A stretch of DNA of 64,000 nucleotides. It comes from Chloroflexota bacterium. GTDB taxonomy: Bacteria; Chloroflexota; Anaerolineae; DUEN01. The translations under genes were made by a program, and so were the position numbers. Within the stretch, counting starts at the first letter, position 1. Every line of letters begins with the position of its first letter. Shown here piece by piece: positions 51,687 through 55,928 of this stretch. The DNA is taken from assembly GCA_013152435.1 (NCBI GenBank), contig JAADGJ010000028.1:1-64000 (forward strand), in the 5' to 3' direction. The notes beneath the pieces were generated by a model. The model worked only from the letters and a program-made list of their open reading frames with translations. It was not told where the DNA came from and did not search any database.

Positions 51687-51716
51687 AGTATACACCGGCT
51701 AGATTGCGCCTGTCAA
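51687..51716 (-). promoter_or_regulatory. Sigma70 promoter for smc
   Basis: On the minus strand: TTGACA (51711-51716), 18 bases, TATACT (51687-51692) with TG immediately upstream. Confidence 0.8.
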
Positions 51717-51836: not shown

Positions 51837-53747
51837 TCACTCCTGCGCCAATGCCATCAACGCCCCATAGCGCAGCCCGCGGGAGCTGATCACCATCTGT
51901 TCGACCTCCAGCACCTCCATCAGCGTGGCGAAGATGGCGGCGCCGGCCACGATGACATCCGCACGGGCGGACGGCAACCCCGGCACCCGGCGTCGCTCCG
52001 CCCGAGGCATGCGCGCCAGCTGATCCAACAGGGTGTTCACGCGCGGCGCGGAGAGCACATACCCGTGGACCTCGCCCACCGAGCCACCCGTCTCCACCAA
52101 GTCGATGGCCGCCAGCGTGCGGGCCGTGCCCCCCGTCGCGACGACGGTGCGTCCCTCCACCGAGGCCGGGTTAAGCACCGCCGAGAGCACATCACGCACG
52201 AAGGAGCGCAGCTGGGCAAGCTCCTCCTCCGAAACCGGGTCGGAGGCCAGGAAACGCTCGGTCAGCCGGGCGCCGCCCAGGTCCAGGCCCAAACGGGCGT
52301 CGATCCCCTCCGGGCCGCCCAGCACCACCTCCATGCTCCCGCCGCCGACGTCTACGGCCATAAGCTGGCGCCCCGCCAGCATCTCATCCTCGACAATGCC
52401 CCGGAACGTCAGCTCGGCCTCCTGATCTCCGGTGAGCGAGCGCACCTCCACGCCCGTCATCTCCTGGACGCGAGCGACGAACTCAGCTCCGTTCTCCGCC
52501 GCACGCACGGCGCTGCTGGTAAAGGCCACCAGGCGCTCGATCCCATCTCGGGAGGACTCCAAAGCGAACTCCGAGATCGCGGCCAGAGTGCGCTCGATGG
52601 CCGCCGGGGCCAGTCGGCCGGACTGCCCTACCCCCTCTCCCAACAGGGTAATGCGCTCCTCGTCCTTGATCACCTGCTCGATCCGGCCATCCCGGAGCGC
52701 GGCCGCCAAAAGCTGCACGGAGTTGGTGCCGATGTCGATCACGGCCAGCCGCCGGGGCGGGGCTTCGACCATCATCTGCCGGGCCAGCACGGCCGCTCCC
52801 AACACCACGGCATCGTCGCCCAGCTGGGCGCGCACGATCTTGACCCCCTCCATGGCGTTGGGCATAGCGTACTTCTGCGCCACCTTGCGCACACGATCCA
52901 ACCACTTATCGTCCAGAGCCTCGATCACGCCGCCGCCCAGGATGATCACCTCCGGCCCCAGCAGGTTGACGATATTGGCCACGCCGATGCCCAGGCTCTT
53001 CATCGCCCGCTTCAACACGGAGATGGTCAGCTTGTCCCCGCGAGCCACCGCCTTCGCCAGCACGCCGCTGGTGATGCGGCTCAGGTCGCCCTTGGCGAGG
53101 TCGGGCAATATGCTCTTCTCCCCGCTTTCAATGGCCTCCCTCAGATCACGGACGATAGCCGTGCGGCTGGCCAGGGCCTCCAGACAGCCACGGCGCCCGC
53201 AGCCACAGCGGGGGCCGCCGATCCGGATCACCATATGTCCCACCTCGCCCGCGCTGCCATTGCGACCGCGATGCAGGTGTCCATTGATGATGATCCCGCC
53301 GCCGATGCCGGTGCCGACGAAGATGCCCACCACATCCCGGGCGCCGCGGCCCGCCCCCAACGCGTGCTCTGCCAACGTGCCCATGTTCACATCGTTCTCC
53401 AGGTACACGGCAAGCCGTTGCCGCAAGGCAGCGGCCAGCGGCACATCCCGCCAACGCAGATTCGGGGCGAAGCGCACCACGCCCGCCTCGGCATCCAAAA
53501 CGCCCGGCGCGGCGATCCCCACAGCGCCGATGTCCTGCAAGGTCAGCCCGGCCTCCTTCACAGCCGTCCGGGCCGCATCGGCGATACGAGCGATGACCGC
53601 CTCCGCCTGGCGATGCGCCTGGGTGCGCACCTTGGCTCGGGAGAGGATCTTCCCCTCCGCATCCACCACAGCCGCCAGGATCTTGGTCCCGCCCAGGTCC
53701 ACCCCGACCACGTGGCGGGCCTCCGAACTCGATCGATTTGCTGTCAC
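51837..53747 (-). CDS. ROK-family sugar kinase fused to Ppx/GppA phosphatase
   Basis: 636 residues from a GTG behind GGAGGGGAG. The first half (about residues 12-325) is a full ROK kinase: VVGVDLGGTKILAAVVD, LENDVNMGTLAEH, GIFVGTGIGGGIIING, and the zinc motif GPRCGCGRRGCLEALAS. The second half (about 333-636) is a full Ppx/GppA-like domain: LAVIDIGTNSVQLLAAALR, RSLTGDQEAELTFRGIV, LMAVDVGGGSMEVVLGG and ATGGTARTLAAI. Both belong to the ASKHA fold. One chain could couple sugar phosphorylation with polyphosphate or ppGpp hydrolysis. It is the last gene of an operon with two thymidylate-kinase-like genes. The join is clean with no frameshift. Confidence 0.93.
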   Translation of the reverse strand: MTANRSSSEARHVVGVDLGGTKILAAVVDAEGKILSRAKVRTQAHRQAEAVIARIADAARTAVKEAGLTLQDIGAVGIAAPGVLDAEAGVVRFAPNLRWRDVPLAAALRQRLAVYLENDVNMGTLAEHALGAGRGARDVVGIFVGTGIGGGIIINGHLHRGRNGSAGEVGHMVIRIGGPRCGCGRRGCLEALASRTAIVRDLREAIESGEKSILPDLAKGDLSRITSGVLAKAVARGDKLTISVLKRAMKSLGIGVANIVNLLGPEVIILGGGVIEALDDKWLDRVRKVAQKYAMPNAMEGVKIVRAQLGDDAVVLGAAVLARQMMVEAPPRRLAVIDIGTNSVQLLAAALRDGRIEQVIKDEERITLLGEGVGQSGRLAPAAIERTLAAISEFALESSRDGIERLVAFTSSAVRAAENGAEFVARVQEMTGVEVRSLTGDQEAELTFRGIVEDEMLAGRQLMAVDVGGGSMEVVLGGPEGIDARLGLDLGGARLTERFLASDPVSEEELAQLRSFVRDVLSAVLNPASVEGRTVVATGGTARTLAAIDLVETGGSVGEVHGYVLSAPRVNTLLDQLARMPRAERRRVPGLPSARADVIVAGAAIFATLMEVLEVEQMVISSRGLRYGALMALAQE

Positions 53748-53793: not shown

Positions 53794-54144
53794 CTATTCC
53801 CATGACGCCGCCTGCTCCGCCAGGGCATCCACCAGCGCCTCGAACCGCTTCAGATCACGTCGGCGCCCCTTCTCCGGCTTCACCCGCAGGCTACGGATCG
53901 CCTCCAGCATCGCGGTCAACGCCTCCACCCGAGCCTCCTTATCCAGATCCTCGCTCATCAGATCGGGTGAGGAGACCGCCTCCTGGACCTGCGTGATCCG
54001 TCCCTCCAGTCGCATCCGAAACATGGCTACGGACTCTCGCAGATCCGCCCGCACTTTGTCCAACTCGGCCACGAGTTCCCGGCGCAGCCGCTCCTCGTCC
54101 ACCGAACGAGAGGACGAACCGCTCGCAACACGCTTTCTCGCCAT
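53794..54144 (-). CDS. Small helical protein of unknown function
   Basis: 116 residues, nearly all helix. A basic, serine-rich N-terminus (ARKRVASGSSSRSV) is followed by two charged helical regions (DEERLRRELVAELDKVRADL and EARVEALTAMLEAIRSLRVK), suggesting a coiled-coil adapter. It lies 4 bases after the second kinase-like gene and 46 before the ROK/Ppx start, clearly inside the operon. No family recognised. Confidence 0.7.
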   Translation of the reverse strand: MARKRVASGSSSRSVDEERLRRELVAELDKVRADLRESVAMFRMRLEGRITQVQEAVSSPDLMSEDLDKEARVEALTAMLEAIRSLRVKPEKGRRRDLKRFEALVDALAEQAASWE

Positions 54145-54148
54145 GACA

Positions 54149-54844
54149 CTACGCCTCTCCTAGCAGGGCCAATACCCGCGTCTGAAGATCCCGGGAGATA
54201 GCTCGAATGGACCGATTGCCGTTGATCACCTCGAAGCCATAGCGCTCCTGCAGCCGCCGGAACGCGACCCGCAACATCCGTTGATACTTGATGAAGGACT
54301 CGAAGATGTCACGGGACAGCCCGAGGTCCATCCCCGCCTCCCAATAGTCCAGCGTACCCGCCTTCTGGAAGTTCCGCTCCACCAGATTGCGAGGGCTCAC
54401 CTGAAGGAAGAAGACGGCATCCGGCACCAGGGCGATGCCGTACACCCCCTCCAGCCATTGCATATCCGCCCCCCGTACCAGGTCACGCGCCATCAGCGTG
54501 TAGATGTATCGGTCGGCCAGCACGATGAAGCCGGCCTTGAGGGCCGGGATGATGCGATTTTCCAACTGGTCGGCGAAGTCGGTGGCATAGAAGAGGCTAC
54601 GCGTGGTCGGGCTGAGCACATTCCCCTGCTTCGCCTCCTCCAGCTCTCGGCTGATCAGCGTTGACCGGCTGAGCCCGACGTTGTTCACCACCGCGTGGCC
54701 GCGTCGCTCCAACACCTCGGTCAGCAACGCGATCTGCGTGGAACGCCCGCTGCCATCCGCCCCTTCGATCACGATCAACTTCCCGATCAAGCTCTCCGGC
54801 GTGACGCCGGGGATCCCCTCACCGTAAAACGCGTTCATCGTCAT
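54149..54844 (-). CDS. Thymidylate kinase-like protein, atypical Walker A
   Basis: 231 residues. The P-loop LIVIEGADGSGRSTQIALL aligns with dTMP kinases, but the lysine of GxxGxGK is an arginine here (GSGRST). The canonical REPGGT substrate loop is replaced by NVGLSRSTLISREL. AGFIVLADRYIYTLMARDLV keeps the DR motif, and the block WEAGMDLGLSRDIFESF is shared with its neighbour but not with standard Tmk. It is therefore unlikely to be the housekeeping dTMP kinase, and its activity may be altered or lost. It overlaps the upstream paralogue by 4 bases (ATGA). Confidence 0.8.
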   Translation of the reverse strand: MTMNAFYGEGIPGVTPESLIGKLIVIEGADGSGRSTQIALLTEVLERRGHAVVNNVGLSRSTLISRELEEAKQGNVLSPTTRSLFYATDFADQLENRIIPALKAGFIVLADRYIYTLMARDLVRGADMQWLEGVYGIALVPDAVFFLQVSPRNLVERNFQKAGTLDYWEAGMDLGLSRDIFESFIKYQRMLRVAFRRLQERYGFEVINGNRSIRAISRDLQTRVLALLGEA

Positions 54845-55527
54845 CGGCGCGTCCTCCACCGGAAGCGGGCCAAATCGATCTTCTCCTCCACCACCTGCCG
54901 CACTTCCTCCTGCTGTTCCTCGATGGGCCGGGCCGCATCGATCACCGTGAAGTCGAACTTCTCCACCATGCTCAGGTACTGTGCCTGCACCCGGTCCTGG
55001 AAGAGCTTAAAGCTCTCCACCGGATCCGGGGAAAGCCCCAGGTCCATACCCGCCTCGTGATATTTCAGCTTCGTGCGACTGCTCAGGATGCGGTGCACGG
55101 CCACATCCAGCGGCACATGGAAGAAGAAGGTGATATCCGGCTGCAAGGCGAAGCTGTACAGGTTCTGCACCCATGTCGGGGAACACCCCCGCGCCACATC
55201 CCGAGCCATGGCGGTGTAAATATATCGATCGGCCAGAACGATGAACCCCGCCTTCAGCAACGGCAGGATCTGGCGTTCGTATCGATCGGCGAAGTCGGTG
55301 CTGTGGATGAGGGAAAACGTGATGGGGGTCAGCAATTGCTTCTTCTTACCACGTCGCGTCGCACGACGCACCATCTGCGAGGAGTTCCACTCGGTGAAGA
55401 ACACCTTCAACCCTTGCAGTTCCAGCCAACGCCGCAACAGATAGATCTGCGTTGACTTCCCGCTGCCGTCCAGGCCCTCCACGGCGATCAGCCGGCCGGG
55501 CGGCCTAGCATCTCCCGTCACAACCAT
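54841..55527 (-). CDS. Thymidylate kinase-like protein
   Basis: 228 residues, ATG six bases after AAGGAG. The normal Walker A LIAVEGLDGSGKSTQIYLL is followed by TEWNSSQMVRRATRRGKKKQ where Tmk enzymes have the REPGGT loop, then FIVLADRYIYTAMARDV and HEAGMDLGLSPDPVESFKL. Both this and the next protein share these unusual blocks, so they are diverged duplicates within a separate clade of the Tmk fold. The substrate could be a nucleotide other than dTMP or an unrelated phosphate acceptor. It is the first gene of the operon; the leader contains a repeat hairpin. Confidence 0.82.
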   Translation of the reverse strand: MVVTGDARPPGRLIAVEGLDGSGKSTQIYLLRRWLELQGLKVFFTEWNSSQMVRRATRRGKKKQLLTPITFSLIHSTDFADRYERQILPLLKAGFIVLADRYIYTAMARDVARGCSPTWVQNLYSFALQPDITFFFHVPLDVAVHRILSSRTKLKYHEAGMDLGLSPDPVESFKLFQDRVQAQYLSMVEKFDFTVIDAARPIEEQQEEVRQVVEEKIDLARFRWRTRR

Positions 55528-55641
55528 AACGTGCTCCTTGCGAAAAGTATCACCCGCTGGGACCTCCGGACCAGGGGGGAGCCATCCCGCACGTCGGGTC
55601 CCATCCTCGCCACGAGAGGGTGGCCATCCACCATCCCCCTC

Positions 55642-55700
55642 AGAGCGTGTCTGAAAACTTACCGTGCAGAAACAACGGCTTTTCTCAGACACGCCCTCAG
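55642..55700 (-). repeat. Dispersed intergenic repeat, short inverted form
   Basis: AGAGCGTGTCTGA (55642-55654) and TCAGACACGCCCT (55685-55697) are opposed end motifs with only 30 bases between. The core is missing, so this looks like a deletion derivative or a minimal unit. It falls in the leader of the kinase-like operon. I see no gene in 55528-55928. Confidence 0.8.
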
Positions 55701-55709
55701 GTTACCGTC

Positions 55710-55715
55710 ATTATA
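55710..55715 (-). promoter_or_regulatory. -10 box of the kinase-like/ROK-Ppx operon
   Basis: TATAAT on the minus strand; the best -35 at 17 bases is a weak GTGTCA (55733-55738). Transcription would start just before the repeat hairpin, leaving a leader of about 175 bases. Confidence 0.5.
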
Positions 55716-55928
55716 GCAGATTTCAGGCAAAGTGACACAGCGGCGATGATTGCCAATGGAAAAAGCACTCCCCCGCCGAACCTCAGGCGGTGCAGATCGT
55801 GAGGACTACCCCTTGGTCCGGGCGGCGGGGAGGGCGAGGAGCCGGAGGCTTGCATAAACCCGCTGGATGAGGCACACTGAACACCACACCGGGCCTGCCT
55901 TTCCCGACGATCGCGTGGAGGTGCGACG

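Follow-up and report, generated by a model that had tools for sequence, protein, structure and literature searches.

A ROK-type sugar kinase joined in one reading frame to a short Ppx/GppA domain in a Chloroflexota bacterium of the class Anaerolineae

The window, that is the whole stretch of 64,000 nucleotides of contig JAADGJ010000028.1 that was analysed, carries on its minus strand a run of genes in the order thymidylate-kinase-like protein 1, thymidylate-kinase-like protein 2, a small charged protein, a ROK kinase fused to a Ppx/GppA domain, and smc (Table 1). Neighbors among the first three of these genes either overlap or are separated by 4 bases, the gap before the fusion gene is 46 bases, and smc begins 173 bases after the fusion gene. 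Because promoter-like matches both precede the first thymidylate-kinase-like gene and lie between the fusion gene and smc, the arrangement suggests a four-gene unit that ends in the fusion gene and is separate from smc. The fusion gene is probably the last gene of an operon with the two thymidylate-kinase-like genes and the small charged protein, and the identical four genes in identical order are present in G002, a MAG from a second genus within the same family. The thymidylate-kinase-like pair (54149-55692) adjoins the fusion gene in its family and Ppx in another genome, G478. A tandem pair of this kind, with about 40% identity between its members, is also found alone in 21 of 150 genomes of the class (loci L166-L183), so the pair is not tied to the fusion.

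Table 1. Position and basis of the features of the fusion gene and its surroundings, numbered along the window.
Feature	Positions	Strand	Basis or remark
ROK-Ppx/GppA fusion gene	51837..53747	-	636 codons, GTG start, AGGAGG upstream
ROK kinase domain, glucokinase type, residues 13-326	52770..53711	-	Pfam, NCBIfam and PDB matches; ends of standalone ROK proteins
ROK zinc site CGCGRRGCLE, residues 181-190	53178..53207	-	Motif and alignment
Short Ppx/GppA domain, residues 332-633, without HD domain or domain III	51849..52754	-	Pfam, alignments, AlphaFold model
Ppx E443 (QEAEL), matches the family's catalytic glutamate	52419..52421	-	Invariant in the 18 alignment rows covering the position
Ppx D466 of VDVGGGS, second phosphate loop	52350..52352	-	Alignments
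Thymidylate-kinase-like protein 1, above the dTMP kinase cut-off	54841..55692	-	NCBIfam
Thymidylate-kinase-like protein 2	54149..54859	-	Pfam/NCBIfam; 91% identical in G002
Charged protein of 116 residues, probably a coiled coil, without a Pfam family	53794..54144	-	70% identity in G002
Sigma-70-like promoter match, extended -10, before the four-gene unit	55710..55738	-	Consensus match only
Sigma-70-like promoter match, 11/12, between fusion gene and smc	51687..51716	-	Consensus match only

The reading frame of the fusion gene is free of stops from a GTG at 53747 to its terminator and encodes 636 residues, and a search of the genome places the whole query inside a single open frame of 670 residues without an internal stop. 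An ATG at 53828 was considered as a longer start and set aside; we favor the GTG because AGGAGG lies just 5' of it and because a gene starting at the ATG would extend into the one upstream. Searched against Pfam, the protein yields ROK (PF00480) at residues 14-324 (E=4.4e-73) and Ppx-GppA (PF02541) at residues 358-633 (E=1.4e-57, 195.8 bits against a cut-off of 27), and nothing else of similar strength.

The N-terminal half contains the ROK motifs DLGGTK (17), ND (118-119), ExGH (168-171), CxCGxxGC (181-188) and E190, in columns that agree with standalone relatives, and thus has the domain, the zinc motif, ExGH and the catalytic aspartate (D119) of a ROK glucokinase. Its nearest NCBIfam subfamily is the ROK glucokinase TIGR00744, and because the score of 238 bits lies below the curated cut-off of 260 we file this half, on its sequence, as a glucokinase-like ROK kinase, short of a certified glucokinase. 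In the PDB the nearest chains are likewise glucokinases (3vgk, 2qm1, and 3vov), which have the fold, DLGGTK, ExGH, ND, and CxCGxxGC in common with it and in the fold matches are 36-38% identical (3vgk and 3vov) and 33% identical (2qm1); these known enzymes stop where the fusion protein runs on into Ppx. The earlier note had pointed out that one kind of ROK kinase uses polyphosphate, and for the present protein we find no support for such a donor. The model for polyphosphate-glucose phosphotransferase, NF045942, has a cut-off of 250 bits and gives 54.8 with partial coverage, and the zinc motif also speaks against polyphosphate since CxCGxxGC is missing from the polyphosphate glucokinases that PMC6406325 describes. 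Such enzymes (for example Anabaena All1371, PMC4252912) are also ROK-type kinases that are tied biologically to polyphosphate, but none of those described is fused to Ppx and the ROK half studied here matches them poorly. A ROK transcriptional repressor was also rejected, there being no N-terminal DNA-binding domain and only about 12 residues before the kinase domain.

In the C-terminal half, PF02541 is accompanied by DIGTNS (338), E443, D466, and GGGS (468-471), again in columns that agree with standalone relatives, and so both phosphate loops and the catalytic glutamate of the Ppx/GppA family are present. Residue E443 is assigned as that glutamate because of the alignment with the Aquifex protein, its catalytic role being one that we take from the E. 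coli and Aquifex Ppx enzymes. Among NCBIfam models of its kind the best is the short exopolyphosphatase TIGR03706, with 225 bits, which is below the cut-off of 307. The closest PDB chain is the Ppx/GppA protein of Aquifex aeolicus (1t6c, 2j4r), a two-lobed short exopolyphosphatase without an HD domain that shares the catalytic residues at 34% identity; the difference is that the present Ppx sits behind a sugar kinase.

The junction itself is short, with a linker of about 4-6 residues. In the alignments standalone ROK proteins end 1-8 residues from position 326-330 and standalone Ppx rows start at about 327-333, and the AlphaFold model (mean pLDDT 85.5; pTM 0.58, at which the orientation of the domains is not fixed) has a ROK helix at 312-328 followed by a Ppx strand at 332-339. 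Foldseek matches each half of the model to its own family, namely to Aquifex Ppx (1t6c) and to the ROK glucokinases 2qm1 and 3vgk. Because the ends of the standalone domains and the modeled helix and strand borders both coincide with the junction, the protein is, as predicted from sequence and model, two whole enzymes joined almost without a linker.

The same fusion is encoded in the second genus, by an Anaerolineae bacterium (G002; MAG AUK314, JAGHDS010000223.1), where it is 78-79% identical over residues 1-429; the contig ends there, inside the Ppx half, and the full-length Ppx half is read in the present genome only. Comparison of the two gives dN/dS values of 0.10 for ROK, 0.14 for the sequenced part of Ppx, and 0.06 across the junction at a dS of about 1.3, indicating strong purifying selection on either side of the junction, although this is evidence of selection on the halves and not on their linkage. 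The in-frame junction in an independent MAG of another genus rules out an assembly or frameshift artefact, and together with the purifying selection on both sides it excludes a chance or local frameshift error at the junction. The earlier note had read complete ROK and Ppx/GppA domains in one frame, and the Pfam domains, the 636-codon open reading frame, and the second genus with the same junction bear this out: at the level of sequence the gene is confirmed as a true two-enzyme fusion, with the predicted active-site residues intact in both halves. Nor are the two domains always separate genes in close relatives, the finding that the note had named as one that would count against it, because these relatives have either the fusion or no Ppx. 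Specifically, genomes from the same genus (G001) and the same family (G003) contain no Ppx domain, and only more distant ROK proteins. A syntenic empty site was sought in both and not found, smc having different neighbors there.

Beyond these two genera of one family the fusion was not seen in 396 genomes of the class and 400 of the phylum. Ppx matches in the class (E<=1e-15; 64 of 396 genomes) lie mostly in frames of 500-600 residues, and a ROK domain is absent from those tested, this genome excepted. Across the phylum the Ppx half has matches in 67 of 400 genomes (E<=1e-35), all of the loci that were fetched lacking ROK, and the whole protein as query finds its full length in this genome only. 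Nine further long Ppx frames that were tested have no ROK domain, several long Ppx frames being Ppx-HD or Ppx-CHAD, and among plasmid records none reaches 80% coverage of the query. In a FastTree analysis of the sequences collected here the fused ROK clusters with standalone Anaerolineae ROK proteins that are about 50-55% identical to it (support 0.84, rising to 0.99 at the next deeper node), and the fused Ppx forms a long branch in a well-supported mixed clade (0.96) that holds both short and longer Ppx proteins.

The earlier note had linked the fusion to phosphate polymers or alarmones, and here the gene neighborhoods bring out the polyphosphate side. The genome has a single PPK2, which lies on this contig (C28:66224-67108), beyond the window and about 12.5 kb from the fusion gene, and PPK1 was not found in the genome. 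Next to this PPK2, within L191:6224-9259, are genes for an AadA-like nucleotidyltransferase, which is convergent, and for a GNAT acetyltransferase. In another Chloroflexota family, G451 (L122:4845-10869) has PPK1 adjoining an operon in which a hypothetical gene is followed by separate genes for a short Ppx, for CHAD (this one split into two frames), and for ROK, so that a ROK kinase there lies inside a polyphosphate gene cluster. In G410 a Ppx gene on the minus strand adjoins PPK1 and ROK on the plus strand, all as separate genes, and in G478 CHAD lies near the Ppx that adjoins thymidylate-kinase-like genes, and the genome has a PPK2. CHAD is a polyphosphate-binding domain that often occurs in operons of polyphosphate enzymes (PMC6537752). 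The G451 cluster is not a direct ancestor of the fusion because its Ppx and ROK stand in the reverse order, and in the tree the fused ROK groups with the standalone Anaerolineae proteins and not with the ROK of that cluster. The alarmone side of the link is weak. A RelA/SpoT domain gave no match in this draft genome, which is estimated to be 96% complete, so that the absence itself weighs little, and the three nearest relatives have RelA/SpoT, G001 and G003 among them, which are without Ppx.

Based on these data we propose, as the probable reading, a bifunctional protein in which a ROK glucokinase that uses ATP is joined end to end with a short exopolyphosphatase, and which takes part in polyphosphate metabolism. 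The ROK half, with its own active site, would use ATP to phosphorylate glucose or a related hexose, while the Ppx half, at its own active site, would trim phosphate off the end of polyphosphate, the substrates of both being our assignment. The fusion would hold the two enzymes at a fixed ratio and close together, and may belong to a module for polyphosphate and nucleotides, with the two thymidylate-kinase-like proteins in its operon and PPK2 near. Most likely these are two independent predicted activities in one chain, and any coupling between them is something that we can only infer. The complete domains, intact catalytic residues, conservation, NCBIfam placement, fold matches, and gene neighborhood all argue for this mechanism. 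Counting against it are the two NCBIfam scores below their curated cut-offs, the C-terminal part of Ppx being read in one genome only, since the G002 contig ends before it, the lack of a PPK1 in the genome as a source of polyphosphate, the G451 cluster with Ppx upstream of ROK, and the fused ROK grouping apart from the ROK of that cluster.

Other readings differ in what each half does. The Ppx/GppA family contains pppGpp phosphatases as well as exopolyphosphatases, and sequence alone is poor at separating the two activities, so that the C-terminal half might be a GppA-like pppGpp phosphatase that ties sugar phosphorylation to the stringent response; with RelA/SpoT distributed as described and the gene neighborhood pointing to polyphosphate, we regard this as very unlikely. 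Context favors an exopolyphosphatase, the preference for polyphosphate resting mainly on the PPK1, PPK2, and CHAD neighborhoods and on CHAD as a polyphosphate-binding domain. It is also conceivable that the ROK half takes polyphosphate as its donor, alone or besides ATP, with Ppx feeding, trimming, or holding the chain and glucose-6-phosphate as the product. The polyphosphate glucokinases are themselves ROK proteins and ROK genes lie within PPK1-Ppx-CHAD clusters of other Chloroflexota, but the zinc motif, the poor NF045942 match, and the ATP glucokinases as nearest structures all speak for ATP, and hydrolysis by Ppx would waste the donor, which makes this reading unlikely.

Two further explanations concern the linkage. 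ASKHA domains change shape upon ligand binding, and with a linker as short as this a shift in one domain could be passed on to its neighbor; the Ppx fold might thus sense polyphosphate or phosphate and tune the glucokinase while itself turning over little substrate. However, a pure sensor would have no need of E443, D466, and intact phosphate loops, and the model does not fix how the domains face each other, so we judge such a regulatory role quite unlikely. Alternatively, neighboring genes may have fused by accident and been kept as harmless, as the very narrow distribution would allow, but the frame has stayed open over the high synonymous divergence from G002 with low dN/dS, and we consider an accident doubtful. 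We keep to two enzymes of independent activity, and offer as a speculative and rather improbable extension that the two work as a coupled machine: polyphosphate, on being bound or cut by Ppx, would control or feed hexose phosphorylation by ROK, and the phosphate store would set the entry of sugar into glycolysis. Were the halves coupled, phosphate storage and the first step in using sugar would be joined within one natural protein. Without coupling, too, the fusion is a “Rosetta stone” and as such a strong hint that the ROK sugar kinases in Chloroflexota polyphosphate clusters belong to polyphosphate metabolism.

The literature searched contained no published description of a ROK-Ppx fusion, which is a new and narrowly distributed combination of two well-known domains and not a new kind of system. 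The Ppx-HD fusions of Alvarado et al. (2006), to the extent that they are described where cited in PMC6537752, likewise unite Ppx and a second domain in one chain; their HD partner is C-terminal to Ppx, whereas here the partner is N-terminal and is itself a kinase. The same difference in position holds for Ppx-CHAD, in which the polyphosphate-binding CHAD domain follows Ppx. An example of Ppx-CHAD in another Chloroflexota genome (L200:1930-3903) is a second type of exopolyphosphatase fusion.
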